NCBI GenBank assembly: GCA_014377305.1
Contig: JACMPW010000005.1
Location: 1-64,000 of the forward strand
Reading direction: 5' to 3'
DNA length: 64,000 bases
From: Candidatus Altimarinota bacterium
Lineage (GTDB): Bacteria > Patescibacteriota > Gracilibacteria > BD1-5 > UBA2023
The notes below the pieces were generated by a model. The model saw only the letters and a program-made list of their open reading frames with translations, ran no database searches and was not told the DNA's origin. This document shows positions 2,314 to 54,720 of this stretch, in pieces. How positions within the stretch are numbered: position 1 is the stretch's first letter; the number at the start of each line of letters is the position of its first letter. Made by a program: the position numbers and the translations under genes.

Positions 2314-2940
2314 ATGGAAAAACTCACCAACAAAGAGCAACTCGTTCTCCACTCGATAAGAGAATTCATCTCTCGCAGTGAGAAGATGACGATCCGAGCA
2401 CTCCAGACCGCTCTCGGATACGCCTCACCTCGCTCGATATCAGTCCTCATCGATCAGCTTATCACCAAGGGGTGGATCTACAGAGACAGTCAGGAGCAGA
2501 TCCGTATCTCTCCAGACTTCCGATCGGATAGTCACGAGGTCAGGATGATCCCGCTCATCGGGACGATCGCTTGCGGGATGCCGATATTCGCCGAGGAGAA
2601 CATCGAGACCGAGATTCCAGTATCGACTCGACTCGTCTCTACTGCCAAGAAGTATTTTTTCCTCAGGGCACAGTGAGACTCGATGAATCAAAAGGGGATC
2701 GACGATGGAGATCTCGTGCTCATTGAGCAGACCAGTGTCCCACAAGACGGACAGATCGTCGCAGCTCTCATCAACGACGAGGCAACACTCAAGGAGTTCC
2801 GCCATCAGGGAGATCTCGCCTATCTCATCCCTCACTCAGACAATCCTCGTCATCGTCCGATTATACTCGGTGACTTCTCAGACAATTTCTCAGTGCAGGG
2901 TGTTTTCGTCCGATCGTTCCCAGGTTCCCTCTTCGCATAG
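2314..2940 (+). CDS. lexA: LexA-family SOS repressor / self-cleaving S24 protease
   Basis: 208 aa, close to the usual LexA length. An N-terminal winged helix-turn-helix (about residues 5-65) is followed by the S24 peptidase domain. The self-cleavage region reads IACGMP, so the scissile bond would be Cys87-Gly88 where LexA normally has Ala-Gly. The nucleophile is Ser123 in GDSM (that glycine is a TGA codon at 2674-2676), and the general-base Lys160 lies in ATLKEF. It should repress DNA-damage genes and be inactivated by RecA-stimulated autocleavage. recA follows directly, which supports an SOS pair. The ATG at 2314 is chosen because it begins the HTH domain; the frame extends upstream without family similarity. 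Confidence 0.93.
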
Positions 2941-3049
2941 TTCTATACTTTTACCATCCACCATCACATGATTATCTACTTCAACCGCATTCTCCTATCA
3001 CTTATCATTCTTACCTTGATTTCATTCTCGATTTCTGTAGTATCGAATC

Positions 3050-3065
3050 TGTAATTTGTATTACA
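3050..3065. promoter_or_regulatory. Candidate recA operator (inverted repeat)
   Basis: TGTAAT-TTGT-ATTACA is a perfect inverted repeat 46 bases before the recA start, in the 171-base lexA-recA gap. A LexA site is expected here, but its half-site differs from the one ahead of lexA, so the assignment is tentative. Confidence 0.35.
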
Positions 3066-3111
3066 CACTCCCACTCAACTATACTAACAACCTACTAACT
3101 CACCTATTCCT

Positions 3112-4104
3112 ATGACAGATAATAAAAAAGAAGCCCTCGCCTCTGCTCTCGCTATGATCGAGAAACAATTCGGAACTGGTTCCGTGATGAAGATGTGAGA
3201 TAAGGTCCATATGGAAGTAGAAACAACTGGATCTGGATCTATTGCCCTCGATGATGCACTCGGTGGTGGCTATGCCAAGGGTCGTATCGTCGAGATCTAT
3301 GGTCCTGAGTCGTCAGGAAAGACGACTCTCGCACTCCATGCTATTGCCGAGGTACAACGCAATGGCGGTACAGCAGCATTCGTCGATGCAGAGCACGCTC
3401 TCGATCCGAAGTATGCGGCATCAATCGGTGTCAATATCGAGGAGCTCATCATCTCACAGCCTGACTATGGTGAGCAAGCACTCGAGATCGTCGATGCACT
3501 CGTCCGCTCTGGGGCTGTAGATCTCATCGTCGTTGACTCTGTAGCAGCCCTTACACCCAAGGCCGAGATCGAGGGAAATATGGGAGATAGCTTCATGGGT
3601 CTCCATGCTCGTCTCATGTCACAGGCTCTCCGTAAGGTGACGGGTGTCATCAACAAGTCGAACTCTACGGTCATATTCATCAATCAGATTCGTATGAAGA
3701 TCGGAGTCATGTTCGGTAATCCTGAGACGACTACGGGGTGAAATGCTCTGAAGTTCTATGCGTCTCAACGTCTCGATATCCGCCGCAAAGAGAAGCTCGA
3801 AACAGGCACTGGAGATGATAAGGAGGCATTCGGTAACCGAGTGAAGGTCAAAGTCGTCAAAAATAAGATTGCACCGCCTTTTCGTGAAGTGGAGATCGAC
3901 GTCCTCTTTAACGAAGGGATTTCACTCGCAGGAGAGCTCCTTGATATCGGTTCTGATCGCGGAGTAGTGAAGAAAGCTGGAGCGTTCTATTCCTATGGTG
4001 AGACTCGTCTCGGACAGGGGCGTGATAACTCGAGAGTATTTCTCAAAGAGAATCCAGCCATCATGAAAGAGATCGAAACAGCAGTCAGGGCTGCGAAGAA
4101 ATAA
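3112..4104 (+). CDS. recA: RecA recombinase
   Basis: 330 aa. Standard RecA: Walker [10 protein letters not shown] at residues 64-72, the DSVAAL stretch, the QALRK region and NPETTTGG in the L2 loop. It forms ATP-dependent filaments on single-stranded DNA for homologous recombination and activates LexA cleavage. Two in-frame TGA codons, at 3196-3198 (residue 29) and 3739-3741 (residue 210), sit where RecA has glycine. The second is the conserved Gly of TTGG, direct evidence for the recoding. The acidic C-terminal tail is short and the protein ends in a Lys/Ala-rich segment. Confidence 0.98.
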
Positions 4105-4109
4105 TTTGT

Positions 4110-4137
4110 TTGCAATAGAGTGAAAGTATGATACAAT
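4110..4137 (+). promoter_or_regulatory. Promoter for the small protein at 4159
   Basis: TTGCAA at 4110-4115 and TACAAT at 4132-4137 with a 16-base spacer, just after the recA stop and 21 bases before the next ATG. Confidence 0.55.
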
Positions 4138-4158
4138 AATGTTGTAAAATATTTTTCT

Positions 4159-4416
4159 ATGTCAGAGTATGATCCTACATCACTTGGACTCAATTCTGTT
4201 GCCGAACGACTCAAGGCTGCAGGATTTTGTCAGACGGGTATTGCCCGAGCTGTGACAGAACTCGTATGAGAGTATCTCGGTATCCATGCAAATATGAGTC
4301 ATAGCCTGACTACTGCTCTAGGCAATACAAATTCTGAAGCACTCCAGCTCCTATGAATACAAGATTCTGCTAATGATCCAAAATTTGAACAACCCAAAAC
4401 AGGAACTTATGTATAA
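4159..4416 (+). CDS. Small protein of unknown function (85 aa)
   Basis: 85 aa with two TGA-coded glycines, ending at TAA 4414-4416. It has its own promoter-like sequence and is closed by a terminator, so it is probably a monocistronic gene. The sequence is soluble and mostly helical in character (GLNSVAERLKAAGF near the start), without a signal peptide or known motif. I do not recognise the family. It is too short to show up under standard stop codons. Confidence 0.6.
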
Positions 4417-4434
4417 AAAAACTTGTAAAAAAAT

Positions 4435-4464
4435 AAAATCTCCTCATAATCGAGGGGATTTTTT
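4435..4464 (+). terminator. Rho-independent terminator
   Basis: AAATCTCCTC/GAGGGGATTT stem (one G-T pair) around a five-base loop, followed by a T-run, 19 bases after the small gene. Confidence 0.85.
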
Positions 4465-4467
4465 AGA

Positions 4468-4526
4468 GCTCCTTTGCAAAGGAGCGGTCTCGCCCCAAGT
4501 GGGATTGAGTTTTTTTCCCCACTTGG
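4468..4526 (+). other. Two tandem hairpins in the leader of the flavin reductase
   Basis: GCTCCTTT-GC-AAAGGAGC (4468-4485) is followed by CCAAGTGGG (4495-4503) pairing with CCCACTTGG (4518-4526) across a T-rich loop. The second stem ends 8 bases before the ATG at 4535. These may form a regulatory 5' leader or reinforce the preceding terminator. No known riboswitch class is recognised. Confidence 0.5.
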
Positions 4527-4534
4527 TTCTATCT

Positions 4535-5206
4535 ATGTTCAAAACAACATTCATCCTCATATCCAAGAGAGTACTCACACACGATGTCTATGAACTCGTC
4601 TATAGTTGTCCTGATCTCGTGAAAGATATACCCAAACCAGGACAATATGTGATGTTCCAACTTGCTCCAGGACTCAATAGATCGTATTCACTCGCTTCGT
4701 TTACTACAGATTCTTTCACTCTCGTTATCAAGAGAGTGACAGAGGGTAAAGGGAGCTCGATCATCTGTAATGCGGAGATCGGTCAGGTTTTTTCTGGCAT
4801 GCTCCCACTTGGACACTTCATGCTCAGAGACACCGTAGTATCCAAGTGTTTCATTGGTACTGGGACAGGATTTGCTCCACTCTATTGTCAGATGCTCGCG
4901 TGCACAAGCCTCTCTCTACGAGTCGCATTTGTTTTCTGAGTTCGCAATCTGGTGGATAGTTTCTATTCGTCTGAGATCGTGAGTCTATGAGAGCAGATTG
5001 TAGATTTCCGATATATTCCCTATCTCTCTCGTGAGGAGAGTCCAGGATTCACTCAAGGATATGTGATCGACTGGATTATTCCTGGGAACATCATAGAATA
5101 TGAGGAGTTTTACCTCTGTGGATCACCTGTGATGGTGAAGAGTGCACGAGAAAAACTCGCCTCACTATGAGTCGAGAATAGGAGAGTATTCTGGGAACAG
5201 TTCTAA
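4535..5206 (+). CDS. FAD/NAD(P)-binding oxidoreductase (ferredoxin-NADP reductase-like)
   Basis: 223 aa. The N-terminal beta-barrel carries the FAD-binding signature RSYSLAS (about residues 49-55). The nucleotide-binding half has GTGTGFAP (about 108-115) and a C-terminal CGSPVMV, the order seen in ferredoxin-NADP+ reductase and PyrK/phenol-hydroxylase reductase families. It should move electrons between NAD(P)H and a flavin or one-electron partner. No [2Fe-2S] cysteine cluster is present, so it is a bare FNR-type module and its partner is unknown. Several Gly residues are TGA, including one right after the original frame break at 4937. Confidence 0.85.
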
Positions 5207-5208
5207 TT

Positions 5209-5490
5209 TTACTCAAAACTCGGCGTCCGTATATCGAACCTGTCCATGTCATCATCTGCATCTTCATCGAAGTTATTCATGATATCTTGTCCCCAGCGAG
5301 AGAGAGCATAGATATTATCATTGAGATTCATATTCCTCCAGTCGATGATGAAATCATCAGGCGTCTCATCCGTCCCCTCGATATAGTAGGCCATCATCAC
5401 AGAGTAGCCTTGTTCCTCGGCGATCTGATTGATCCGCTTGATATAGTCCTGTACCTTGTCGGTGAATTGTTGTCGTGAGAGTTGAGACAT
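5209..5490 (-). CDS. Small acidic protein of unknown function (93 aa)
   Basis: 93 aa, convergent with the flavin reductase and only two bases from its stop. The N-terminal half looks helical (QQFTDKVQDYIKRINQIAEE), and the C-terminal half is Asp-rich (NNFDEDADDDMDRF). No TGA codons, signal peptide or membrane segment. I do not recognise a family. The clean frame and amphipathic composition favour a real gene. Confidence 0.6.
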   Translation of the reverse strand: MSQLSRQQFTDKVQDYIKRINQIAEEQGYSVMMAYYIEGTDETPDDFIIDWRNMNLNDNIYALSRWGQDIMNNFDEDADDDMDRFDIRTPSFE

Positions 5491-5583
5491 AGCAGAAAAT
5501 GATTCAGAGTTAGTATGACAATTATATAAAAATTTTGCTCGAAAGCGAATTTTTCCTACTTGATTTTCGCGTGCTTCTCTGAG

Positions 5584-6318
5584 TTATTCGAACCATTTCA
5601 CCGCACTCATACCTATTGCACCTATCACGAACAATACTACAGTTGCATATTTGTATTTGCTCTGTGAGTGTATCACAGGGAGGAGATCAGCAGTCGCGAC
5701 ATAGAGGAGTGATCCTCCAGCCCAGGCTGTTGCGAGCCCTGTGAATACTACCGAGACATTCGAGAGGATGAGATCAGAGAGCATATATCCTATAGGTGCA
5801 GCGAGTGCAAAAAGTGATATGAAGAGTATCTGTATATGCCACTGGAACTTGCTTTCGCGAAAAATCGCAGCAAGAGACAATGAAACAGGGATCTGATGTA
5901 TTGCAATACCAGCAAGGATGGTATATCCTATTTCACTCGATATTCCGAATCCAGCTCTGATCCCGAGACCATCGAAGAGTGTATGAAAAAAAATAGCTAT
6001 AAATGATACGAGTGCAACATGATCATAGTGCTCGTGTGGATCCTCATGTGTATGATCTCAATGACCATGGTCATGAGCATGAGGTGTGAGAATCTCCTCT
6101 ATGAGGTAGATCATGAGGAATCCTAGGATGAAAGCATATACGGCGAGTGGTGTTTGCTCGAGTGCCTCAGGGAATATATGCACGAGGGAGACTGAGAGCA
6201 TCGATCCTGCCCCGAGACCGATGAGGAGACCGAGTATCGTCCGATTGATTGTCTCGAAAAAGAAGAGGAGGAGACCAACAGCTGAGATGATCGCGAGTAC
6301 AAAAATAGAAAAGAACAT
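5584..6318 (-). CDS. ZIP-family divalent metal transporter
   Basis: 244 aa integral membrane protein with about seven or eight predicted helices. The ZIP hallmarks are present: FFHTLFDGLG in helix IV and IHQIPVSLSL in helix V (His-x-x-x-Asp/His pairs lining the metal path), with a His-rich cytoplasmic loop before them. ZIP proteins import Zn2+ and sometimes Fe2+ or Mn2+. It lies 41 bases downstream of a Fur/Zur-type regulator on the same strand, which suggests zinc-responsive uptake. One frame-breaking TGA falls in the His-rich loop at 6055-6057. The usual helix V HEIPEG Glu is replaced (HQIPVS), so substrate preference is uncertain. Confidence 0.88.
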
Positions 6319-6359
6319 AGTTATTATATTATGTATATTTGATTATACCTTCTATCGAT

Positions 6360-6734
6360 TTATCTGATCACACAGGCACTACATGACTTGGTCTGTTGAT
6401 ATGTCTGTGATAGGGTGAGTTGTGCCGATATACGAGTATGTGTATCATATATAGCTCCACAGTTCTCACAGAAACTGATGGTGACAGCGTCATCGATGCG
6501 TCCATCAGCACACTGGCAGGCGAAGATAAGTCGCTCTCCAGCGATCGTCGTCTCATGGATGAGACCCTGAGCCTTGAATGTATCTACAATACGATAGAGC
6601 GTAGCGAGATTCATCCCAGGTTGTCACTTCTTCCCGACGAGATCTCTACGCAGATCAGAGAAGGTGATACGACTTGAGAGAGAGAGGAGTTCTACAAATC
6701 GCTTGCGAGGCTCTGTAACACGGGAATCTGACAT
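6360..6734 (-). CDS. Fur-family metal-responsive repressor (Zur-like)
   Basis: 124 aa. N-terminal winged helix with NLATLYRIVDTF, the typical Fur recognition-helix region, then a dimerisation domain with structural zinc ligands FCENCG and CSAC near the C-terminus. The start at 6734 restores the whole HTH by reading through a TGA glycine near 6615. The adjoining ZIP gene makes zinc the likely signal, but iron, manganese or peroxide sensing cannot be excluded. It most likely represses its own operon. Confidence 0.88.
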
Positions 6735-8118: not shown

Positions 8119-8430
8119 ATGATAGCAGTAGTAGAAATCGGTGGTAAACAATATACAGTAGAAAAAGACATGACATTCGTTGTCGATCGTCAGGCTGCTG
8201 ATGTCGGTAGTACTATGACTCTTCCAGCTCTCCTCATCGCGAGTGCAGATGGTAAGATAGTCAAGGTAGGTACTCCTACAGTGGAGGGTTCTCAGATCTT
8301 GGTCGAGGTTGTTGAGCATCTCAAGGCTGACAAAATCCGAGTATTCAAAATCAAATCAAAAAAACGCTACATGCGAACCCAGGGATTCCGAGCCTACCAG
8401 ACTCGTCTCACTGTCACAGCTATAGCATAG
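8119..8430 (+). CDS. rplU: Ribosomal protein bL21
   Basis: 103 aa. The N-terminus IAVVEIGGKQYTVEKD and the C-terminal KSKKRYMRTQGFRAYQT are diagnostic for L21, a 50S protein bound to 23S rRNA. No TGA codon interrupts it. The usual partner rpmA (bL27) is not adjacent; a cell-wall hydrolase follows instead. Confidence 0.96.
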   Translation: MIAVVEIGGKQYTVEKDMTFVVDRQAADVGSTMTLPALLIASADGKIVKVGTPTVEGSQILVEVVEHLKADKIRVFKIKSKKRYMRTQGFRAYQTRLTVTAIA

Positions 8431-8502
8431 TTCCCGAGTGACCAGAGAATGTAGTCAGTACAACTATCTCATATGTGAGATATTTATTCCTAAGATATTC
8501 GA

Positions 8503-9651
8503 TTGTCCATACGCCCCAATCATCGAGCTCGTCATGCACGAGCCAGTAGATCCAATATTGATCTCCCATCAGTATCGGATACATTTCGTAGATTCAAGTG
8601 GTTTACGATTGCACTCGTCATCCTATTCCCGATATACCCATCTCTCTCGCTCCTCGGATCGGTGGGCATGGTACGTGCCTGAGACTACGATGAGTCGACG
8701 ATCATCACGGCATATAGCGATCTCGGTGACGTGACAGGAGATGGATATATATCAGATACTGGACTCATCCGTATCTGAGGTGGTAGCTCTGGACAGAGTA
8801 GTCCACAGAGGCCATCTGATACACGCGTAACCGCAGATATCATAGACAAAAATATCAAAAAGCATACTGTCCGAGCTCTTGAGAGTGTTCGGAGTATATC
8901 AGATAAATATTGAGTGAGTACTGATGCTATCCTCTGGGCCAATGATCTCGAGAGCACTGATGAGCTCAAGATCGGTCAAATTCTCAAGATCCCTCCTGTT
9001 TCAGGTGTCGTCCATACTGTTGTCAATGGAGATACTATCTCTGCTATAGCTGCGAAATACGACGTAGATAGTAGAGATATTGTATCTGTGAATACTCTCC
9101 GAGATGCTGCGAGTATCCGTATCGGTATGGATCTGATGATCCCAGGTGCTATATCACGATCGGTTGCTATTCTCGAGAAAAATGATCCACAACCCAATAA
9201 ATCATCTCTTTCCAAGTGAGCAATCCAAACACGAGATACGAGTGATGCTCGTCTCGAGCCAAAATCTCAAGTCACTATATCTCCAAAAACATTACTCAAA
9301 GATAGATATGCGGTCAAGTATACTGGTAAATCACGAGGATTTGTCTGAGGGAATTGTACCTGGTATGTGGCCCAAAACAAGAGTGTTACTTGGCGAGGCA
9401 ATGCATCATCTTGGATGCGAAACGCTCAAGAAGAATGAGTCAAAACAGGATCTACTCCTATAGTAGGTGCTATCGTACAATTCTCTGGATCTGGATACAA
9501 TCGATACTATGGACATGTTGGTATCGTAGCGGGTATCGAGTGAGGCAATATCATCGTCAAGGATATGAACTATCGAGGTCTCTATGAGGTCACGATCCGC
9601 AAGGTGCCGATCGATCATCCGGGTATCGATGGATATATCTATGTCGACTAG
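8503..9651 (+). CDS. LysM and CHAP-domain cell-wall hydrolase
   Basis: 382 aa if it starts at TTG 8503, the only NTG after the upstream TAA at 8491. The first ATG (8668) would cut off the hydrophobic segment WFTIALVILF, which looks like a signal anchor. Two LysM-type peptidoglycan-binding stretches follow (HTVRALESVRSISDKYG and HTVVNGDTISAIAAKYD). The C-terminal CHAP amidase/endopeptidase domain has its catalytic Cys in GNCTWYVAQ and His in GHVGIV. It probably cleaves peptidoglycan peptide bonds during growth or division. At least seven glycines are TGA. Its terminator at 9664 closes the unit. Confidence 0.85.
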
Positions 9652-20276: not shown

Positions 20277-21389
20277 ATGAACAAGATCCTTAGTAGCTTT
20301 TTTGTATTCGTGTTTCTTTTTGTCACTATTGCTCCAGTTGCTGATGCGAGTAGTCGCGTTCGTGGCACTCTACGCAATACTCAGACAATGTATACTCCAT
20401 ACTATCAGGCACCTGCATATCAGACATATTATTCACAACCAACTCAAGTATACCCTACGTCAGCTGGGAGTACCTATTACTATTCGTCGAACTACGTAGC
20501 TGGATATACCTACTACTCTACTCCAACTCCAGGATACTACTACTATAGCAATATTCCTACACAGACTCAGACGAGTTATGCGACACAACAGGGGCAGTAT
20601 TATTTTTCTCCGAACTATATCCAATGATATACCTACTATTCGAGTCCTACAGCGGGATACTATTATTACTATGGATCGAATACGACAAGCAATAGTAATC
20701 CCATATATACGACAAATAACCAGAACAATGCCAATCTGATATGTACAGTGATCAACAATATCTATCAATGTACGCAGAATAGCTATGGACCTATATTATC
20801 TACCTATCCTGGTTGTTCATCTGCAGATATCGTCATCGGAGGTCAGATCTGGGCATCATGCAACGCACTCGATCGCAATGCTGGGTCAATTGCGAAGTCT
20901 GGATGGTTCTTTGCTGGAGATACTCAGTCTACATTTACCTCATACAATGGATCCAATACGACTCTCGAGTGGATGGGCAAGCAGACTCAGACGAGTGCCT
21001 GGACGACAGGACCATGTGCGAGTGGGTATCGTCTCCCGAATCGTGGAGAGTGGGAGATCCTCCAGTCATATGCGAGATCCAACAGCTCTACGATCGCGAG
21101 TCTCATAGGACTCCAGTCCAACGGAGCCTACCAAGCATCTCGCAACTCTGCTGGTGATGTGACGATCAGCTCTCGCCTCCCAGTTAGTGCGAGCTACTGG
21201 ACATCGACGATGGACGGTGGTACACCGACCGTGATGCATGTTGGATCGACCTATGCTGGATACAGCACTACGGGTACAGACTATGGCTATGTGAATAGTG
21301 GGTATCAGTGGGCATATACAGATACTGGACTCCAACTCCAGAGATCGACGACTGGAGAACTCGCCAATGCGAGATGTGTGAGACAGTAG
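20277..21389 (+). CDS. Exported Tyr-rich protein with FISUMP domain
   Basis: 370 aa with a signal peptide (SSFFVFVFLFVTIAPVADA). Residues about 30-150 are tyrosine-rich low-complexity repeats with YYSTPTPGYYYYS-like units. The C-terminal 210 residues form a Fibrobacter-paralogous (FISUMP) domain, recognisable by IVIGGQIWASCNALDRNAG, GYRLPNRGEWEIL and the final ANARCVRQ. FISUMP proteins are secreted and of unknown biochemical role. One TGA glycine at 20625 separates the repeat region from the domain. It is probably extracellular. Confidence 0.85.
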
Positions 21390-21404
21390 TAACCAATACA
21401 AAAC

Positions 21405-21440
21405 AAAAAATCTGTTCTGAATATTCGGGACAGATTTTTT
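21405..21440. terminator. Bidirectional terminator
   Basis: AAAAAATCTGT and ACAGATTTTTT arms around an inner stem with GAATATTC, between the convergent FISUMP gene and the 21444 gene. Confidence 0.9.
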
Positions 21441-21443
21441 GTT

Positions 21444-23129
21444 TTATGTTTTCTGAAGGAGTCCCTCGATACTGGCGGTATGACTCGGAGGATAGGTGAG
21501 AGCTGTGGTGATATCAGACTGGAAACGGGGGAGACGATCCCCACTCGTGAGGACATCAGGAGTCCCTCAGAGCTTGGCAAGAGATCTCTCTAGGATATCC
21601 TTGCTCATAGGGCTGAGTGGTTCTCAGAGTTGTATATGATTCGATGGAGTCCGATCCCTATTGACGAGTGCTATGATACGATCGATAGACTCTTGAGCAC
21701 TTGGTCCTATACGATCGAAATATCTATCCGTGAGCCATGAGAGATTGTCTCTTGCATTTTTATCCCAGAGGAGTGTATTATTTTGAGGGCTTTCTTCTTC
21801 TATGGTAGTTTTTTCTTGTATCTTTTGGAGTGACTCCATGATTGCAGTCATCCTGACTAGAGTTCACTTGATAGCTCCTATATCAGGATCGAGAGGATTG
21901 CTAGTGGTCTTGTCTTGTATGACCCTACCCAGACGAGCTTGCTCCATACGCAACACTCCTCATGTTGTCTCGATCATAGTTCGCGATAGTTTCGCAGACT
22001 GTGGACTCCTGAGGCTGATATGGGAGAGGGTATTGTCGAGCATACCTCATACCTCTGGAGAGGTGATATCACTCCCATCTCCCATCTTGCCACTGAGTAG
22101 CTCCCTCGTATCTCGAGATATCATTGGTACTATCTGTGCCACTATATTTCGCTTGGTATCATTGCGTTCTCGAGCTGGGTCTATGATAGTAGGTGCTATC
22201 TCACGAGAGATGGAGAGTCCATTGCGTGTTTTGGCGAGCTTGAGAGGCTGCTTGTCCATATCTATCTCGTATTGGTATCTCTCATTGGTAGGATCTGAGA
22301 AGGTGAGACGGTCACCCGTACGAGTGATGAGTGTATCGGGGGATCACTTGGTGAGAGAACTGATGGTTTCGATAACTTTTCACTGTGTTGCATTAGACTG
22401 ATTGCTTATCAGTGCTTTTATATTATCAGCTCGCTCTGTATAAGGGAGTCAGAATTCTCGTGCACTAGCACGCAGTTCCTGGAATTCATTTTTGATCGTT
22501 CCTTTAGGAAGCTTTACCATGATAGCATCTATAGTACTTTGCTGCGAAAGATAATAGGTATCTATGAGATTCTTGATCTGAGGATTATCATTCTTTTGTA
22601 TTGCTGCATCGATTTTTGATGGTTCAGTATTGCTCGCTTTTGCGATTTTTATCTTTACATCTTCTGGAAGAGGATTTTTTGCTTTTGCAATAGTGAGCTC
22701 CTCTCATACGATCATTGGATCGATTTTTTTTACTGATTCAAGATTTGCTTGGAGTTTTTCGAATTTATCAGCGTTAGTTTCTAGTATAGAATTAACTTTT
22801 CCTTCACTTTCTAGTATAGAATTAACTTTTCCTTTATTTTCACCTCAACTATTATTTATTTTATTTTCCGATATAACTATATCATACTCTAATGCGAGAG
22901 TATTTTTTATTTTTTGATCCTTGTCTATAGATCATAGTTTTTGTTCCTCAACTTCTTTTAAGATATTTTTGAGTTCTAGCTCAAGTTCTTCTTTCTTATC
23001 TTGAGATAGATTATTTATACTTTTAGATACATCATCTGAAATTCATAGTTTTTTTATCAACCCTGAAAGAGCATCTTTCGGTGCTTCTGGTTGTTCTTTT
23101 ACTGGAATGGATGTGAGTTCTTGACCCAT
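21444..23129 (-). CDS. Large protein of unknown function (561 aa)
   Basis: 562 codons with about a dozen TGA glycines, ending at TAA 21444-21446. The N-terminal half is Lys/Glu-rich and helical, including two near-identical short repeats (KVNSILES/KVNSILET, about 22780-22835). The C-terminal half is rich in Arg, Asp and Leu (PTIIDPARERNDTKRNIV, TTGVLRMEQARLGRVI). No signal peptide, membrane helix or known motif is seen. It is 57 bases downstream of another unknown gene, and both probably share the promoter at 23984. Confidence 0.75.
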
Positions 23130-23186
23130 AATAAAAATATGATACCTTTACGATATCATATTTTCTTTTTTTATGCAAAAATCAAA

Positions 23187-23951
23187 CTATGCTATGGCTC
23201 AAGTTACAGATTTCCAAATATTTTTTGCTTTTATTTCTGATTCTCATTTTATTTGAGATATTTCAGAATCTTTCATTCCGAGTTTTACTCTAGCAATTGA
23301 TTCTAATGAAGAAATAATAGTTTTTCATTTTCAGTTTGAATCTCATACGGAAATAGTGAGTATATATACACTATAGAATCAACTTGCAAGTTGTTCTTTT
23401 GTGATTATTTTTCATTGTTCAGTAAGTGTAAGTATCTCTTTGAGGGTTTTATCTGCAACTCAGAATAAATCTTCTTTTGATACTGATGCTAGCATTATCT
23501 GCGCACTCCTATCATATTTTACTAGTATTTTCTTCTGAGCAATTCTGGCTTCTACTGCATTGTCTGGTGCATTACTGCCATCTACTAATTTACCGTCTAT
23601 CACTGGTGGTGCAATGATACCTCATCTTGCATCTCTGAAATATTTCACTGTTTTCTTCGTTCCATCTACTTGAATTACTTCTGCAGTATATACTTTGCCA
23701 TCGGTTTCTGTACTTGCTTGGGCTAATAGAATTGGATATGTATCTGCTAGGGCTGTCACTATAGGACGTTCCTGTGCCCCCGCAGATAGAGATAGTGCTA
23801 GGAGTCCTGTGGCTACTGCCGTACGTATCTTGCTCGTACCAGAGTTTCATCACTCAGATGGGGCAGCTACAACAGCATCTCATGAATCAATTCCTGAAGA
23901 TAGAGTAGGAGATACTTGAGAGAATATATTGATATGAAATATAGAATTCAT
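23187..23951 (-). CDS. Protein of unknown function (254 aa)
   Basis: 254 aa, starting at ATG 23951 and ending at TAG 23187-23189, with about twelve TGA glycines. A moderately hydrophobic Ala/Leu-rich stretch lies near residues 43-55 (TAVATGLLALSLSAGA). The C-terminal third is Lys/Ser/Ile-rich. No family recognised. It is first in a probable two-gene operon with the 561-aa protein. Confidence 0.7.
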
Positions 23952-23983
23952 ATGGAGTATGGTTTATAGTTATTTTCCTCTAT

Positions 23984-24012
23984 ATTTTAGCCTATCATAC
24001 TTGACTCGTCAA
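23984..24012 (-). promoter_or_regulatory. Promoter for the 23951/23129 gene pair
   Basis: Minus strand TTGACG (24007-24012), 17-base spacer, TAAAAT (23984-23989), 33 bases before the ATG at 23951. Confidence 0.65.
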
Positions 24013-24166
24013 CTCTATTTTATTTTCTCTCCTTGATTTCCTACTTTTTCTGACTATATTGCCCGCCCCTGAGCTATCTGATGCGTCCAGATATTTTTGA
24101 CATACCAATATTCCCTATGTGAAATAGGGATTTCTGATTGTGATTGTATACATATTGTGAGCGGGA

Positions 24167-24376
24167 TTAGCCCACTTTTCCAAAATATGCCCATTCATCA
24201 CCCACTCTAGCATTTTCATTTGGCATGATGATATAGCCATCTGTAGGAGCTACTATATTTCCTGTTGGGCTATCTATAATAGTCTCACCAATAGATACTG
24301 TATCAAAATTTTCCCATTTTTTTGAGAATATGTCATTGTCTTTTCTGTGTATTTTCTTTCCGTGTATAGAGTGTGG
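24167..24376 (-). pseudogene. C-terminal remnant resembling an aspartoacylase / succinylglutamate desuccinylase family protein
   Basis: On the minus strand an open stretch of about 69 codons without a plausible start ends at TAA 24167-24169. It reads like the end of the AstE/AspA metallocarboxypeptidase family: IVAPTDGYIIMPNENARVGDEWAYF. No catalytic zinc-binding part is present, so it appears to be a decayed gene end beside the AT-rich operon. The remainder of 24013-24463 has a small hairpin (24111-24132) and the operon promoter but no other gene. Similarity is judged by eye only. Confidence 0.45.
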
Positions 24377-24412
24377 TTATTACTTTATATATTATAGTGC
24401 ATATTTTTTAAA

Positions 24413-24442
24413 TTGACTTTTATTAAAAAATGTTATTATTAT
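24413..24442 (+). promoter_or_regulatory. Promoter of the four-gene AT-rich operon
   Basis: TTGACT (24413-24418) with TATTAT (24437-24442) at 18-base spacing, about 22 bases before the first ATG. Alternative -10 registers exist in the AT-rich run. Confidence 0.5.
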
Positions 24443-24463
24443 TATCTAATAACTAAATTTAGA

Positions 24464-25534
24464 ATGACTCAAAAATCATTAGAAGCCAATAAGTTAAATT
24501 CATGAGCCTCATTATACGCACAGCATATGTCATATGACAATGATCATAAAGTATGATTTTTTACTACAGCTATAGAAAAAATTCTTTCTTCAAGAAATGA
24601 ATGAAAGGCACTAGATATATTGGATGTGTGATGTAATAATGGTGATCTTATATGAAAATTGGATCTATATTTTTGAACAATAATAAGTACACATGGAGTA
24701 GATATTTGAGCTGAGTTAGTAAAAATGGCTCCTGCATGAAAGGCGAGTGTAGGAAATTGATACGATCTTGCATTATTTCCATCAGAAAGCAAAGATGTTC
24801 TACTTTATTCATCTTTCTTACATGAATTATGAAGTTATTTTACATCGGAATATTTTGAAAAATATTCAAGAGAAATATATTATGCAGGTATTAAAACCTG
24901 ATTAAAAGCAGCAGAACGCGTACTAAAACAATGAGGATTTCTCCTCATTAAGGATCCTGTTAGACCTTTACAATCTTCTGAAATATTAACATTAAAAATA
25001 AAAGATTGAATCAATAGAGTTACAACTATTTCAGAACTTTTCTCCAAATGAGTAGAAAAACCAACTCGAGATATAGATATATGAAATCTTACTGAACAAG
25101 ATCTACAAATTCTTGATAGCGTACTCGTTCCAAACGATCTGCATTACTTACCAAGAATGGCATTATTTTTGAAGTGATTCCAATGGTCTCACTCACAAAT
25201 ACCAAACTGAATAATAAATTTACAAGGAGACATATTAACATTCACACGAGATTTAGTTGCCGATATTTCACGACATATGCCTTGGTGATACTCTAAACAA
25301 AGTTTTACAGATGAACAAAAGGAATGGTATTGATCATTAAATGCAGAAGAATGGAAAGAGGTATTAAAAGATACCTGATTTGAAATAGAAAGTCATGAAG
25401 TGACCTATCGAAAAAGTGATCATTCAAAACTAATGGGAAACACATTTGTGATCTATGACTCAAAATGAAAAGAAATTCATGCACATGACATATCCCCAAC
25501 GCATCATTATACAGTATTAAAGAAAATTAAATAA
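24464..25534 (+). CDS. Class I SAM-dependent methyltransferase
   Basis: 356 aa. The Rossmann SAM-binding motif I, ILDVGCNNGD, is at residues 52-61. An acidic GVDIGAELV motif II region and the FLLIKDPV strand near residue 160 follow. The long C-terminal region (about 200-356) is unique and may bind the substrate. By my hand count about 21 of 28 glycines are TGA, far above the neighbouring housekeeping genes. It is first in an operon with a nucleotidyltransferase (3-base gap), a 2H phosphoesterase and a PLP aminotransferase, so it probably acts on a small molecule or nucleotide-linked product. The substrate is unknown. Confidence 0.82.
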
Positions 25535-25536
25535 AA

Positions 25537-27141
25537 ATGATTCGACAAGGATTACTACATCAGGAAATCACTCTTAGAAATATATCTCTTGAATTAGCTA
25601 TAAAATCTATCGGGGAGGTTTTATGAGAGAAAGTAAAAGCAATATGATACTTTGGTTCATTAGTTACTTGAACTAATGGGGTATATTCAGATATTGATTT
25701 TGTTTTAATAACTGAAGGATTACAAGATCCTGATGAACGAGAGCTACAATCACCTCTCATAAAGGCAAATATCAGGGAAAATGGTTATGAGTTTTTATGA
25801 GCATTTAATATCTACGAATCCTCTACTATAGAAAAAATGCCAATTTGGCTAGCCATAGTTCTATCTAATAATCTTGATATTCTACATGATCCCGAATGAC
25901 TCTTAGGGAAACTCAAAGTTAAATGATCATATGGAAATAGAATAGAGAATGTGGGTCATTGATGGAATATATGAGTAAATAATGGATGAATGGTGAATCT
26001 ATCTAAAGAACTGAGGGAGTATTGACGAGTTTTAAAAAATAGAGCACTTCTTTTGGAAGAGAAATTTCCAAAAATATCACATTACTTGCAACTAGAATCC
26101 GAAAGAATGACTACCTCATGATCACTTGCAATGGATGGAATATTTTGTACAAATGGATCCTTCGAAGAGTTAAGTAAGATTCATAATGATCGAAAGTTAT
26201 CATGACCAGAAAGTATTAAAGATCAAAGGAGAGTAACTCTCCTGGAAGAAGGTTTTTACTGATATTGAATAGATAAGCAACATGAACAAATAGCAGAAGT
26301 TCTCAAAAATACAATAGATTACAGTGGCGCCTTAATACATTTACTTACTTGATGTCATAGTATTATGAGAGAAATTCTGCATAATAAATGAGATTTTATG
26401 GTTGATGGGGAGGTTACCCAACTATTTTTACAAAAAAATTCAGATTTCATTCAAAAAATATTATGAGATGATAATTCTCTTATTTTTGCTCTTTTTAAGT
26501 CTGAGCAGGTATGCTGAAGAAGCTGAGGCATATCATTCGATCTTACCATGGATGGGGATTCTCGATATGCAAAAAATGATACCCCTGAGTTATTTAGCGA
26601 ATTACTTGAAAAATTAAGTAAAATACTTAACCTATTAAGGTTATATAGGGATGATGAATTATCTTGAATTGGGGAGGAAAGTTATTGAATTACGGTCAGT
26701 ATTCTCATAAATGCCAGTGGAATGAATCAGGATGAACTTAGCGAAAGTATCAAAAATATTGACGAGCTAATATTCCCTTCATCAAAGGCTGAAATAATAA
26801 TAGACAGACCTTCTGGAGTAAACTTAGATGTGAATTTTAATTCTAGATTTTCAATAACTATTAATAATTCTACCCTACCTGATATCAAACCAAAGGGCAC
26901 TTATCACTGGCAGATATCAAAGTGAATGAAAGCCTCAAGACTAAGCTTATTTAGATTACTAGCTAGATGTCAAAGAAAAGATACCTCAATGGTAAAGCCA
27001 AATATTACACAACTAGAAAATAAATATCAATCAAAATCAGAACACCTATGATTGCTCATAAAATGAGCAGTAAAGGATTTATTATCAATAACAAATCCTG
27101 ATAGTATTTATACGGAAAGGAAAGCAATAATTTACTTATAA
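25537..27141 (+). CDS. Nucleotidyltransferase-fold protein (MNT/aminoglycoside NTase-like N-terminus)
   Basis: 534 aa, starting 2 bases after the methyltransferase stop. Residues 37-58 carry the polymerase-beta NTase signature: FGS (39-41) then SDIDFVLI (51-58), with metal-binding Asp52 and Asp54. This domain transfers a nucleotide to a protein, RNA or small molecule. The remaining 450 residues are largely helical and unlike any family I recognise. They contain LIHLLTGCHSIMREILHNKG near residue 265 and a possible second alpha/beta domain near 380-450. It is rich in TGA glycines. Function in the operon is unknown; nucleotidylation of an intermediate is one possibility, an antitoxin-like MNT role another. 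Confidence 0.7.
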
Positions 27142-27144
27142 AAA

Positions 27145-27747
27145 ATGTTTACTGCCACATCACATTTTATAGGCATCGGATTAAATGTGGAAAAATTACT
27201 CTCTATATTTTCATGTACCAATGAGTATTTTTTATGAAAGGAGAGAATGCAATATCTTTCCATGAATCCCCTCTCATCACATGTAACACTACATTATCTA
27301 CCAAAAGAAATAGATTCAGAATATTTAGATAAAATTAAAGAAATTCTAGAAAGAAATCTAAGCTCTGATTTTGATATGGATATATCAGGTATTAATTGTT
27401 TTGTCCCAAATAAAAAAACTCTGATTCTATATTTAGAGCCCACAATCCCTAAGTCTATAAAAACCATACGAGATGAACTGATAGATATAAATCCGTTTAA
27501 TGAAATTACAGATAATTGATATGAATATATTCCCCATATAACGTTATGAAAGGTACAATCATTAGATGATCTGGATGATGACTCTATAAAGAAAATTATA
27601 TCTGAATTATTCCAAATAATACAAATATTCATTACACAAAAGAAACTTGCCGAAACACTCTGAATATTCCGAGTAAATTCCCTTATTACTCCTGAGCTTC
27701 AATTTCCAATCTTCTCTAAAAAACTTATATATGACAGAACTACATAA
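27145..27747 (+). CDS. 2H phosphoesterase-like protein (LigT/2'-5' RNA ligase superfamily)
   Basis: 200 aa, 3 bases after the previous stop. Two HxT motifs, His46-Val-Thr48 (SHVTLHYL) and His131-Ile-Thr133 (PHITLGKV), lie 85 residues apart, the arrangement of the 2H phosphoesterase catalytic pair. These enzymes cleave or form 2',5'- or cyclic phosphodiester bonds in RNA or small nucleotides. Next to a nucleotidyltransferase it may remove or remodel a nucleotide adduct. The C-terminus overlaps the next gene start by 17 bases. Confidence 0.75.
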
Positions 27748-28897
27748 TAACTATGACTCTGATAGACGTATGCTTTCGCTTTGATGGGGGTATACGGATG
27801 AGAGTTACGTTATAGATAATGAGCTTTTACAATCTCTCGAACGAGCATTAAAAAAATATTGATATTGAATTTTACAATACGAAAATTGCTATTGATTACA
27901 AAATTTGAGAGAAAAAATAGTAAAATGGGCTCCAGAGTTTTATAAAATTCCTCAGTTTTCAACTGAATCATTGATCATTACAAGTGGAATTACTGCCTGA
28001 TTAGATCTTGTTTGAAGAAATATACTTTGAGGCAAGTACGATGCTCTTATCATAGAACCATGCTATGATACAGCGATAAGAAGTATTCAGCAGAATTCTA
28101 ATCAAATATTCAGTATAAATGCAAGTGATAATGGTGATGGTTTTATAAAAATTACTACAGATCAATGGAATGAAATCCGTATTATTTTTTCAAAATGAAC
28201 GGTAAAGTTACTATATATTGTACCAAACTATAGTAATCCATCATGACTCAGTATATCACAAGAAGATAAAATTAAATTACTATCCCTGTGTAAAGAATTT
28301 TCTGTAACAATTTTTGAAGATGATCCATACGCACTATATGACTATTCATGAAAAAATAATGGAATAAAAACATTTTATGAATTAGATACTAATCATGAAT
28401 CTGTGATATATGCAAATTCTTTTTCTAAAATTGGTTTTCCTTGATTAAGGATTGGTTTCTTAGTATGAAATCCTCAAGTAATTGCCAAAATTTCAGAAAT
28501 ACAAAAATATTCTATATCGAGCCCAAATCTATTAACACAATGAATAGTTGAAGATATGATCGATGCCTGAATATTTACAAAAGTATTTAAACATAGATTC
28601 AGTGCTATGAAAAATAAGTATATCAACTTTATTGCTACGCTTAATGAAAGTGAAGTAGCCTCAATTAATCAATATATATCATGAATAAATGGATGATTTT
28701 ATGCATGGATTAATGTAAAGAACTGAACTAAATTTACTGATTTAGCAAGAGAGAATGGTCTCGTTGTTATACCATGAAAAATATATTGATGTAATTATAA
28801 TTTTGAGGAATATATTAGAGTGACGTTTTCCCAAATACCATCAAAAGACTTAGAAATAGCAACTAACAAATTAATTCGTACTTTTATGACTATTTAA
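27731..28897 (+). CDS. PLP-dependent aminotransferase (class I/II, MocR-type fold without HTH)
   Basis: 388 aa. Fold-type I features: TSGITAGLDL (about 84-93), NYSNPSG (166-172), EDDPYALYDY (196-205) and the PLP Schiff-base Lys233 in NSFSKIGFPGLRIGF, with Arg240 following. The sequence resembles alanine/aromatic aminotransferases and the catalytic half of MocR proteins, but there is no N-terminal DNA-binding domain. It would supply or modify an amino group in the operon product. The start at 27731 overlaps the phosphoesterase stop. Many glycines, including catalytic-loop ones, are TGA. Confidence 0.88.
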
Positions 28898-29005
28898 TAA
28901 CTCACTTGTTCTTTTGTAATGTTTGATGATTGAATAACGAATAGAAGAAGCTCAACATTATTCTGAGTTTTTAAATATATAGTTGCAATAAATGCATATA
29001 GCATA

Positions 29006-31030
29006 CTACTTGTGCGTCATATGATAGACCCCATCCTCTATATGTACTCGTCCCTCGAGTACCTCGGTACACCTGAGTGCCATCACACGAGATGGTGGAT
29101 CGATCGCGACCTGCGTCTCCCATAGTTTCCTCGCCTCCATATATGATCCAGTCTGGTAGAGTGAGAGAGCCTGAGCATAGGTCTCATACATAGCACTATC
29201 CGTCGTATATCAGAGGAGACCGAGGAGCTCATAGATCTTCACCCCTTCTGTTTTTCACTTCACGGCTATGGTATCGAGTTCACGTACAGCGAATATATCT
29301 CCTACCTGAGCGAGTGTCCCTCCTGATATGATCGTCCATACTCCATATTCTTTGCCCATAGCCTCGAGACGTGACGCCAGATTCACTGTATCCCCGAGGA
29401 CGGTATAGTTGAAGTGGTCACTCGATCCGATATTGCCTACCATCACATCTCCTGTCGCGATCCCGACTCGGAACTCGATCGGTGCCATACCACGCTCTAC
29501 TATCTCCTGATTGAATCCTGGTAGTATTTTCCTCATCTCGAGTGCTGTTCTGCAGGCTCGTATCGCATGATCTGACTGCGTGACTGGAGCTCCGAAAAAT
29601 CCCATCACGGCATCCCCGATATACTTGTCCAGTGTACCACCCTCACGAATCAGTATGTCTGTCATCCGAGAGAGGTATGAACTCATGAGATAAAACAGAT
29701 CACGAGTACCGAGTGCCTCAGATATCGTCGTGAATCCTGCGATGTCTGAGAAAAATACAGTGACCTCTCGCTGTTCACCACCGAGAGTGAGATCGACCTC
29801 CTCCATATCTATCATCTTCACCATCTTGGGATCGATATAGTGACCGAACGCATTTTCGATATATCGTCGCTCACGATCGACCACGAAGAACCGATAGATA
29901 AAAGTGATCGGAAAAGTCAGGAACCCACCAGCAAGAAAGAGAGGAAATATATCTACGAGAGTACGCTCTACATCGTAGAGATAGCGAGATATCCAGAGAA
30001 TACATCCCATCATCACTATTGCGAGTATTGGCGATAGATAGCTCGGGAGCAAAAAATAGAGGATCACAGTAACTAGGCTAATGGTAACTATACTGATCCA
30101 TAGATATTTTGTCTCGAGCACTGAGAGCATCTTGTTCTGGAGGAGTCCATCGAGAAAGTGTGCATGGAGCTCGACACCATCCATCATAGTTCCAGTTACA
30201 GGAGATACGAGACTATCATGGATGAGTGTTCCTGACTCCCCGATGAGGATATATTTCCCTGCAAAATTCGCTATGAGCTCTACTCTCGACATCGAGAGTA
30301 CATCGATGAATGATGCAGTAGGATATGAGTATGGCTGTCCAAAAAATGGATTGAGTACTTGATCATTACTAGAATTTGGGATCCGGAATCCTCATATTTT
30401 TGCGAGTTCTATAGGGAGACTCATGAGTATCTGAGTTCATGTTTTCCATGACTGATACGGCGTATGTGATATATCGTAGATTGTAGGTCGACTATAGACA
30501 GTATCTATATCGACTATTCACCATTTTGTATTCTTATACATAGATCTCGGAGCACCAGGACAAGTCTCTTCGAGTCATATAGTATCGGTTATACATTTTC
30601 CTCCGTCATATCGCATAGTTGCTATGACGATATTATCATATGTATCTAGTGTTTGGGAAAATTCATTTTCAGCTGGATCACTATTTTGGAATATGATATC
30701 GAATCCGATTCCTTTGACTCATGCTCACTCCAGTTTTTCGACAAGGTCTCGATATTTAGATTTTGGGATTGTGAGCATTTTTTGATCTCCAGTTGCTTGG
30801 AGTGTATTGATCGTATGTTCATCTATCGCTATGATGGCAATATCGGATGATGGACGCAGAGTATGAGTATAGAAATAGTCCTGCCAGACTCCACCAGTAG
30901 TGCGGTAGACAAAAAATCAGTTGATTGCATTCGAAAACTCGAGAGAAAATAGCATAATACTCCCAAATATGAGCGTGAGAGAAATCAGAGTGATTGCGAA
31001 AATATGCTTGAGGTTTCTGAGCTTTTTCAT
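29006..31030 (-). CDS. Membrane-bound class III adenylate/guanylate cyclase with CHASE2 sensor
   Basis: 674 aa. An N-terminal membrane helix (about 8-25) leads into an extracytoplasmic CHASE2 domain (about 40-300; PSSDIAIIAIDEHT near its start), then a cluster of membrane helices (about 310-385) and a cyclase catalytic domain from about 423 (VTVFFSDIAGFTTISE with metal Asp; LDKYIGDAVMGFFGAP). A short TPR-like tail (YETYAQALSLYQTGSY) ends the protein. It makes cAMP or cGMP in response to an external cue. Several TGA glycines break it under the standard code. No cyclic-nucleotide receptor is seen in the window. The short gap 28898-29005 holds no gene. Confidence 0.93.
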
Positions 31031-31060
31031 ATACTCTATCCTATCACTAACTCTCATAAT

Positions 31061-31384
31061 ATGCAAAAAACATCACTTTCGAGTATTATCCGTGAAGAAC
31101 TTACTCGTGCATTTGTTTTCTGACTTGGTTTTTTTGCTGTATTATCCGTCGGATTCGTCTCGGTTGCCTATGCAGCGAATGGATGAGCATTTGGTGCTCT
31201 ACTCAACCAGATACTCGTATCAGGGAACTGGGAGGCTCCAGGTGATGGTAGAGTCAAAAATAGTGACAAGCTCGCTGGTGTGGATGCTATCAACTATGTA
31301 CGGATAAAAGCAGGACAGAGTTGTGCATCGAACAAGTGTATTACAGGATTTCAGGCTGATGGAACAGTGAACTGTACTCCATAA
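31061..31384 (+). CDS. Small exported protein (107 aa)
   Basis: 107 aa, divergent from the cyclase. It has a membrane/signal segment (GLGFFAVLSVGFVSVAYA) followed by a short extracellular domain containing RVKNSDKLAGVDAINYV, similar to the start of the next protein (ARNTDKLGGISASGYLQ). Three Cys residues lie near the C-terminus. Function unknown. It is monocistronic with its own terminator. Confidence 0.7.
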
Positions 31385-51211: not shown

Positions 51212-51844
51212 ATGAAATCAACTCTTCACTACATCACTATCGGTATTGTTATCCTGACTCTTTCGAGTTGTTCCTGGTGAGCAAAAGAAAGTGTTGCTAT
51301 CCCTACTGGCACTGGTAGTAATAATACTCAATCGTTATCTAAGCTTACGTGATCTGTACTTCCTCCAGAAGCTCAGTTTAAGGATATTGTTACCGCATTA
51401 GAAGGGACTAAAAACTATAATGAATTCTCCAAAGCATATTCTCTTTCTTCGTCAAAAATAGATGAATGGATATCTCAATGAAGTGGATCATATATATTCG
51501 ATCATAACATAGTAGATAAACTTGTGCCATATATATACATATGTAGGCTCACGCTCTCAGGGGAGGATTCTGTAGTTCGATCATCATTTACGAGATATAG
51601 TACTATTATTCCTCCTATCACAGATAGGGATCCGACAAATAATGTGAATATTATTGAGCAATTTATGAGTTCAAAAATCTCTCTCTCAAAACTCTATGAT
51701 ATATTACTATCTCCTCAGGTCATATTACCACAATATTATATAGATCTCCTCTCCAAGAGGAGACTCGCCTATTGAAAAATATCGGCAGATGATTGCAGTG
51801 AACTCATATTCAAGTATGAAGATACATTTTTTAGTGAAAAATAA
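51212..51844 (+). CDS. Lipoprotein of the HXS locus (210 aa)
   Basis: 210 aa. Lipoprotein signal peptide (YITIGIVILTLSSC) with lipobox LSSC giving Cys20. The mature domain is polar and helical (AQFKDIVTALEGTKNYNEF, IIEQFMSSKISLSKLYDILL). Five bases separate it from the precursor stop. A surface lipoprotein here could receive, display or export the modified peptide, but no family is recognised. Confidence 0.78.
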
Positions 51845-51847
51845 GAA

Positions 51848-53311
51848 ATGAGAAATCACATCAAGTATAGAACGATATTTGCGAATAAGAAAGATCAATG
51901 AGTCGTACGACATATGCCCGATCAGTTGATCATAAGAGTATGAAAGTGATGCAATTTTCGTTGTATTTTTTGTAATGTTGCCGAAAATGAGACAGTACTG
52001 AGCCTCAAATCATCTCTCCAAGAGATACTGGCGATGACTTTTTATAAAATAAAACATACTAAATTTCTTTCTGACCAAATTAATGTAACTATTTCTGGTG
52101 GTGAACCTAGTATTTTCAAAAAAGAGACTCTATTCATACTCAAATACTTCAAGATTTTCTTTGAGAAACGAGGTATTCATACAAGCTTTGATATGCAATC
52201 AAATGCCTCGAGTATTGATAGGGAATTCGCAGATGCAATATATCGTCTCTGAGTATGACAGGTACTCGTCTCATCTCATGCACATGATCCAGAGATATTT
52301 GAGTCTATAATTGGTGTCAAATATGTAACTATGTGACCACGTTTTGAATCAGGCGTTCAACACCTTCTTGATGCTGGTATCGAGGTTACTTTTAATATTG
52401 TACTCAATCGTCTCAACCATTCGCATTATCTAGAACATATTGTCTATCTTCATCATAAATATCCTCAAGTAGCACTCTACAATATATGATTCGTTCAGCC
52501 TCATGGTATGGCACAAGAGAATTTCAAAAAATTATTCTCTCAATATAGTGATGTTGCTCCTGTATATAATCGTGTTATTTCGTATCTCAAGTATCACTGA
52601 AAATACGTACACTCTCACCTCGTAGGATTGCCCCTGTGCTATATGGATGACTGGTCGAGTAGTATGGAATATTCGTATAATCAGGCCCTACTCAAAGCAG
52701 ATCCGAATGATCACACTCTTATCCAATCTATCAATGATAGTAATAAGATACATCCATCATCTTGTGATGGATGTCGAGCAAAGCGAGTCTGTAGCGGTAC
52801 ATGGAAAGAATATAGCAAGTTACAAAAACTCAAGCCATACATATATCCAACCTATAATTCTTCTACTGTTTTTGCTGATGACATTGAGTCTATCGAAAAA
52901 GACTATGATTCTGGTGATCGAGTTTTTTTCTTGGAGTGACGAGTATATACGCAAGGAACCCTGACTGACAAGATTGCATCTATCAAAAATCTTGGATACT
53001 CTTGGATAAGTATTGTTTTAGATAAGTGGAGTGATGGATGTGATCCCTCGTACTTTGCAGGAACTAATATACAGTATATAGCTATTGCTTCGATAGCGAC
53101 TCTATCTACGATAGATGACGTAGCAAAGTATAATAAGCAAGTACCATTTCAGTTTCGTATTCAGTTGGATATACTGATCAAAAATCCAGAAAATTGGACA
53201 ATAAAAGATATCCTTGATATGCCAAAGAGTTCGGATATCCTTGTTCGACTCCCAAAAACCTGGAGATCAGAAAAACAACTTCACAAACCATATATTTATT
53301 TTTCTCTCTAG
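51848..53311 (+). CDS. Radical SAM peptide-maturase-like enzyme with SPASM-type cysteines (487 aa)
   Basis: 487 aa, 3 bases after the lipoprotein. Cluster motif Cys35, Cys39, Cys42 (CNFRCIFC) and GGEPS in the SAM-binding strand (VTISGGEPSIF). A SPASM/twitch-like cysteine set CDGCRAKRVCSG lies near residue 310. A further C-terminal domain of about 150 residues (from SIEKDYDSGDRV) is unlike standard maturases. TGA glycines include the one in the CNFRC-preceding GKGC. Its closest canonical role would be the second HXS radical SAM enzyme (HxsC), but I cannot make that assignment by eye. Confidence 0.85.
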
Positions 53312-53315
53312 TCCT

Positions 53316-54017
53316 ATGGTACAAGTCGCTATACTATGATTTTGAAGACAATGAAAAAAACATGCTCATTTTTGGCGACATATTTGAGTAGAGCCAACTA
53401 TTTTTACACGAACAGCATGAGAAAATAGTTCTTCTATAGAAGAATTTTCCCCGGAAAAATATACTATAGTGGTATGTGCAATATTTCCTCTTGATGAACA
53501 AACAAAAGTGCTCTCAAAGATTCTGATATCCGGATATCTCTGATACCTGATCATAGAGAAACCAATAACCTTTTCGAAGAAACTCCTTGAAACACTCGTG
53601 GGTAGAGAGAGAACCATCTTTTTCATAGATGAAGCATATATGGATATACATATGCGTATTGGGAAAATCTATGAAATAGAAACAGTATCATATGTACCTG
53701 ATGATGCACTCTCTATTCAGGAACATGCTATATGATATACTCTCAGGTCACCTGTATGAGTTCTCTCATATAGAGATATCATTAATTCTCATATTTTATC
53801 AATAGATCAGCGTTATCTACTGGCAACAGATGTTGGCACTATTGAGTCTGTGAATGGGGCTGTATACCTCGATGGACGTCTATTCTCATTTTCTTTTGAT
53901 GCTGTATATACGTATATGTTATACCACATAGCCGACGATGAGATGATGGGCAAGATACGGTCTAACTATTTGAATTTTCGTTTACAATCACCATATTGAG
54001 CCCTCTCCTATGAGTAA
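53316..54017 (+). CDS. Gfo/Idh/MocA-like NAD(P)-binding protein (short)
   Basis: 233 aa. The N-terminal Rossmann motif VAILGFGRQGKKHAHFW (first three glycines mostly TGA) and YLIIEKPITFS, the EKP motif of Gfo/Idh/MocA oxidoreductases, are clear. The C-terminal half is much shorter than the usual alpha/beta domain, and the total is about 100 residues below the family norm. It may be a redox enzyme acting on the peptide or a cofactor, or a degenerate scaffold. It overlaps the next gene by 8 bases. Confidence 0.7.
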
Positions 54018-54717
54018 TAATTCCTTACATAATAGAAAAATTTTTCAAAATAATACTGATATTTCCCGATACTGTATCGGCGTTTTTGGAGAAAAATTTG
54101 AAATACGTTATTGTAATTTTGGTTTTGTAGTCATACCAATATCAGGTCTATTTGTATACAAATATTATCTCTGATCAAAAGATGATCCTTTATTATTCTG
54201 AAATAGAGAGGCAAAAAATTATCTATTCTTTCACCAAAATTGAGTATTGATACCAATATACGAAGTTCTATGAGATATATGTATCTGAAACCAAGTATTC
54301 ATGCGAGCAAAAATCCAAAATATTCGAATGACAAGTAAAAAATTTGTATCTTTTTGTGATTTTGACATCCAACAACTTGCAATGATTATTACTCAGATAC
54401 ATACTATCTATCCTGGCTATATCCATGGTAATATTCATCCATCCAATTTTTTCCTCAATACAAGTGGAAAAATCGGAGTTTTTGATCTTATTACCTATGC
54501 GATATGACCTCGTGAGAGAGATATATCACGTATATTTATGCATGCTAGATATGATGTAGATTTTCTGAAACATTTCCTAGTATTTTACAAGTTTGATATT
54601 TCACTAAAAAAAGTATACTTGATCGCACTTATAGAACTCCGAGAATTGATGAAAATGTGATATGCAACAGATTTTGAAATAGAGATAAAAAAATTGATTA
54701 CACTGATTCAGTCATAG
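54010..54717 (+). CDS. Kinase-fold protein (APH/choline-kinase-like), catalytic Asp replaced
   Basis: 235 aa. The catalytic-loop region reads HGNIHPSN (His139 to Asn146), where aminoglycoside/choline kinases have HGDxHxxN, so the catalytic Asp is Asn141. The metal-binding region GVFDLITYAIGPRERDISRI keeps Asp159 and the family GPREXD pattern. A short N-lobe lacks an obvious P-loop. It is either an inactive pseudokinase with a binding role or an unusual phosphotransferase. It overlaps its neighbour upstream by 8 bases and is 3 bases from the next gene. Confidence 0.7.
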
Positions 54718-54720
54718 TAT

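Follow-up and report, generated by a model that had tools for sequence, protein, structure and literature searches.

A sporadically inherited gene set of a nucleotidyltransferase, a 2H phosphoesterase and an aminotransferase among UGA-recoded Gracilibacteria-type bacteria

CPR bacteria are considered to be without most biosynthetic capacity. In the genome of a Candidatus Altimarinota bacterium (here G000), a run of four adjoining enzyme genes raises the questions of what such a set does and where it came from. In the window, i.e., the whole stretch of 64,000 nucleotides that was analyzed, the open frames under genetic code 25 define four co-directional genes at 24464-28897 on the plus strand, which encode a methyltransferase, a nucleotidyltransferase, a 2H phosphoesterase and a pyridoxal-phosphate (PLP) aminotransferase. 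From 5' to 3', they are joined by a 2-base gap, a 3-base gap and a 17-base overlap, as stated in a preliminary description of this DNA. The features referred to below are the following.

24464..25534, plus strand: class I SAM-dependent methyltransferase (P0001), 356 aa, optional first gene of the cassette (Pfam Methyltransf_11, 4e-6)
25537..27141, plus strand: KNTase/ANT-like nucleotidyltransferase with a helical middle domain and a degenerate GT2-like C-terminal domain (P0002), 534 aa (NTP_transf_2, 7e-6)
25642..25704, plus strand: nucleotidyltransferase signature GYFGS...YSDIDF (G40-S41, D52, D54) in P0002 (alignment, 5/5 copies)
26689..27138, plus strand: GT2-like domain of P0002, residues 385-534, in which the DDG and DxD motifs are absent
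27145..27747, plus strand: 2H phosphoesterase (P0003), 200 aa, with HVT and HIT motifs (H46, H131) (2_5_RNA_ligase2, 6e-8)
27731..28897, plus strand: fold-type I PLP aminotransferase (P0004), 388 aa (Aminotran_1_2, 1e-25)
21390..29005, no strand: segment that G423, a genome of the same genus, lacks between the two convergent genes flanking it here (neighborhood comparison)

The enzyme classes and catalytic motifs noted in the preliminary description are borne out by the Pfam matches and by motifs conserved in relatives. P0004 scores 91 bits against Aminotran_1_2, above the Pfam cut-off, and carries the catalytic lysine of a fold-type I enzyme; residues K233, D197, N169 and R363 are invariant in the alignment of its subfamily. 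Its nearest PDB sequences include KAT II/LysN-like chains, with which it shares the fold type, the invariant lysine and the carboxylate-binding arginine. In contrast to these enzymes, P0004 belongs to a subfamily of its own with a GWGxxDE start, and this subfamily is seen only beside the nucleotidyltransferase. P0004 is the sole class I/II aminotransferase (Aminotran_1_2) detected in G000, and this speaks for a dedicated function more than for a general one; in the genome G311, the corresponding copy is likewise the sole member detected.

The nucleotidyltransferase P0002 has kanamycin nucleotidyltransferase (KNTase) as its nearest PDB sequence, and the GS...DxD/E signature of these enzymes is kept in all five copies. 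The fold model is weak (pLDDT 55); in this low-confidence model residues 7-221 align with ANT(4') and residues 385-502 with GT-A glycosyltransferases. P0002 thus shares with ANT(4')/KNTase the GS...SDxD signature and, at the confidence of the model, a nucleotidyltransferase domain followed by a helical domain. It differs from them in a fused GT2-like domain, in two extra motifs and in a score far under the family cut-offs (22.9 bits against the ANT(4') NCBIfam equivalog, for which the cut-off is 350). The two motifs, GxFxxDGExxQ and KxEQxxGRxGxxSFDL, are located in the middle domain, are found in 5/5 copies and are rich in charged residues. The third carboxylate of the nucleotidyltransferase was not located: at the strand expected from KNTase to hold it, placed here by eye rather than by residue-level structural alignment, all five copies appear to read AFN. 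In the G311 relative a full GT2 domain is fused to the nucleotidyltransferase (Pfam 2e-22) with DDG and DxD intact; in the alignment these motifs are present in the copy at locus L008 and missing in P0002 and at L009, L010 and L030. Activity of the GT-like domain is probable for the G311 protein; in P0002 it would be only a binding or structural domain.

P0003 is a member of the 2H superfamily, with H46xT and H131xT in 5/5 copies and a PF13563 score above the cut-off. It has the two HxT motifs in common with the ThpR/LigT phosphoesterases but scores 44.3 bits against TIGR02258 (RNA 2',3'-cyclic phosphodiesterase, ThpR), under the cut-off of 65.7. A second 2H phosphoesterase gene is located in the same genome (positions 8411-8935 of locus L060, G000:C7). 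The model of the methyltransferase P0001 matches SAM methyltransferases, and motif I and the acidic residue are retained in its relatives. A profile search of the genome contigs found such relatives only in G391 (JAGXIW010000003.1), where the protein is 48% identical and has the same position in the operon, and in G343 (SKJI01000024.1). The G343 homologue belongs to a different small operon (positions 2393-6502 of locus L021) together with genes for a sulfotransferase-like/FGE-like, a guanylate-kinase-like and a NUDIX protein; the first of these, read by eye, may resemble sulfotransferases.

The nucleotidyltransferase subfamily was found in 5/77 genomes of the order in a profile search, each time with the PLP and 2H genes adjoining. 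Three of the relatives came from a search of 192 genomes of the class and belong to another family of the same order, and the fourth came from the order profile search. The gene order is methyltransferase, nucleotidyltransferase, 2H and PLP in G000, nucleotidyltransferase, 2H and PLP in G311, methyltransferase, nucleotidyltransferase, PLP and 2H in G391, and nucleotidyltransferase, PLP and 2H in G303 and G480, i.e., the methyltransferase leads the operon in two of the five genomes (G000 and G391), one in each deep branch. The nucleotidyltransferase and PLP subfamilies occur in the same 4/192 class genomes (hypergeometric 2e-8), and the PLP subfamily was detected in G000 only among 277 genomes of the phylum, where strict cut-offs of 1e-40 and 1e-45 were applied to the class and phylum samples, respectively. 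Single-sequence searches of 286 phylum genomes gave one weak 67-residue match in one genome for the nucleotidyltransferase and no relative of the methyltransferase; the same two queries gave nothing useful in phages, plasmids and viral contigs. Viral contigs yielded no match for any of the four families in profile scans, nor for a second nucleotidyltransferase sequence used as query. The three-gene core, kept together in five genomes, rules out a patchwork of unrelated transfers, and the neighborhood search suggested in the preliminary description thus found genes that do co-occur. The three- or four-gene set is inherited sporadically and travels together among UGA-recoded Gracilibacteria-type bacteria.

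Beyond the cassette, an all-against-all comparison of the five neighborhoods revealed only generic AAA ATPases as shared genes. In G311 the PLP gene is followed by NUDIX and GNAT genes. In G391 the cassette is closely preceded by genes for RidA and threonine dehydratase (L010, 10507-12221), and in G303 a CCA/poly(A) polymerase gene adjoins it. In G480 (L030, 11995-18250), genes read by eye as an OLD-like ATPase, a C5 DNA methyltransferase, a GHKL ATPase and a response-regulator-like protein are located nearby, so that these surroundings are a possible defense island.

The operon genes have a GC content of 0.28-0.32, compared to about 0.45 in most flanking genes. Because the AT-rich stretch begins at about 22.5 kb, to the left of the operon, the earlier claim of a GC content well below that of the flanks holds for the operon itself, but only its right-hand side shows a sharp contrast. 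The heavy use of TGA for glycine was confirmed, with TGA at 68/109 operon glycines (62%) versus 228/1160 glycines (20%) across those other genes of the window that were examined (Fisher p 5e-20), an excess that is partly compositional since TGA use drops as GC3 rises in the background genes. Some of these codons are found at motif glycines, e.g., G56 in the LDVG motif of the methyltransferase, in support of code 25. The one promoter proposed earlier was not confirmed: a sigma-70-like match (10/12) is found at 24413-24442, upstream of the operon, but the region holds 21 such matches versus 34 ± 6 in shuffled sequences, i.e., fewer than expected by chance. A second AT-rich, TGA-rich block is found at 51212-61352 of the window, with adjacent radical SAM genes (56124-57446 and 57449-58432) and an APH-like gene (53938-54717) that scores just under the Pfam cut-off.

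In G423, the convergent homologues of 20277-21389 and 29006-31066 are only 46 bp apart, which implies that the block 21444-28897 was either inserted here or lost in G423; base composition favors insertion. The block includes two minus-strand genes to the left of the operon (21444-23129 and 23187-23951), neither with an assigned function nor with a relative in the other four cassette loci, so that it may not have arrived all at once. The former contains a tandem 30-nt duplication (22778-22837) that repeats about ten residues (GKVNSILE...). A search of the flanks of the block gave no convincing insertion repeats; at its left edge, between convergent genes, an abutting 28-nt inverted repeat (21395-21450, 86% complementary, no loop) is probably a bidirectional terminator. 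Because trees of the five sequences are unrooted and transfer cannot be demonstrated from them, four outgroups were added to the five ingroup sequences of the PLP tree. In the rooted tree G000 (family f1) groups with G311 (family f132) with support 100/100, and a single clade of f132 is rejected by the AU test (p-AU 0.004). These results fit transfer between families, where an ancient duplication followed by losses may be an alternative account. Together, the absence of the block from G423 and the rejected monophyly of f132 indicate that the cassette probably came from another UGA-recoded lineage, as had been proposed, and the GC content of the relatives' loci (0.22-0.31) is consistent with an AT-rich donor that shares this genetic code.

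From the association of these genes, their motifs, the fusion with GT2 and the signs of acquisition, we infer a product and an order of reactions. The reading that we prefer, at somewhat less than even confidence, is that of a mobile accessory cassette for a very short pathway, which would make or tailor an amino-bearing small molecule or glycan building block by way of a nucleotidylated intermediate. The aminotransferase would make or consume an amino acid, as suggested by the invariant carboxylate-binding arginine. The nucleotidyltransferase would place a nucleotidyl group on a substrate hydroxyl, like its kanamycin-modifying relatives, and the 2H enzyme would later cleave or rearrange the resulting phosphodiester. 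The methyltransferase and, in G311, the neighboring acetyltransferase and NUDIX hydrolase would decorate or recycle intermediates. Several points count against this pathway: the operon encodes no transporter, carrier protein or ligase; the 2H gene is also found alone in other genomes, where its neighbors give no hint at function, so that it may not be specific to the pathway; a third carboxylate was not located in the nucleotidyltransferase; and the fold model of P0002 is weak. In the literature searched, no account of such a gene set was found, in agreement with the earlier remark that no established pathway has exactly this composition. A bolder version, i.e., a new nucleotide-tethered pathway with a bifunctional KNTase-like/GT2 enzyme, a strictly coupled dedicated aminotransferase, release by the 2H enzyme and transfer within UGA-recoded CPR bacteria, is unlikely.

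Of similarly low probability is decoration of a surface glycan, where an amino-acid- or amino-sugar-phosphate substituent would be made and attached to a cell-surface polysaccharide. The GT2 fusion in G311 and the sulfotransferase-like/FGE gene beside the G343 methyltransferase homologue fit such a role, but the neighbors examined include no membrane transferase, flippase or glycan cluster, and the GT2 motifs are lost in 4/5 copies. Resistance or detoxification, in which the nucleotidyltransferase would inactivate an aminoglycoside-like or nucleoside toxin that the other enzymes modify or regenerate, is rather improbable. It would account for the sporadic, mobile distribution and for aminoglycoside nucleotidyltransferases being the nearest PDB sequences and folds; yet the score against the ANT equivalog is far too low, strict linkage to an aminotransferase is unexpected for a resistance gene, and the plasmids searched contained no relative of the nucleotidyltransferase or methyltransferase.

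The preliminary description had proposed small-molecule or nucleotide-linked biosynthesis, which the enzyme classes fit although the function itself is a deduction, or alternatively RNA modification, for which little support was found. An operon in which the nucleotidyltransferase and 2H enzyme act on RNA ends and the methyltransferase on RNA is improbable to a still greater degree: against the resemblance of the 2H family to RNA 2',3'-cyclic phosphodiesterase (44 bits, under the cut-off) and the polymerase gene in G303 stand a strict partner, the aminotransferase, without a known role there, a cassette in which no RNA-binding domain was found, and methyltransferase structural matches that are mostly to small-molecule enzymes, though this fold is poorly specific. 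An anti-phage or toxin-antitoxin system is very improbable, since the sporadic distribution, weak PADLOC matches of the nucleotidyltransferase and the G480 surroundings are outweighed by five neighborhoods that share no defense genes, a nucleotidyltransferase without a PHROGs match and, for the MNT-HEPN type VII systems, a helical domain that lacks a conserved R-x4-6-H motif, with no HEPN match in the domain searches. Nucleotidyl-activated phosphonate tailoring of the PntC/FrbH kind, in which nucleotidyltransferases are well known to be paired with PLP enzymes (PMC6697681), likewise unites the two in one small cluster but is unlikely here, because PEP mutase is found in 0/5 genomes (assemblies 79-99% complete). 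The cassette enzyme also differs in being of the pol-beta type rather than a LicC-type cytidylyltransferase.

The short pathway that we prefer would be a dedicated mini-pathway that has been retained, rearranged and passed between lineages in which UGA is read as glycine. It would point to a molecule that serves in encounters with host cells or competitors, and to gene exchange channeled by the altered genetic code that these lineages have in common.
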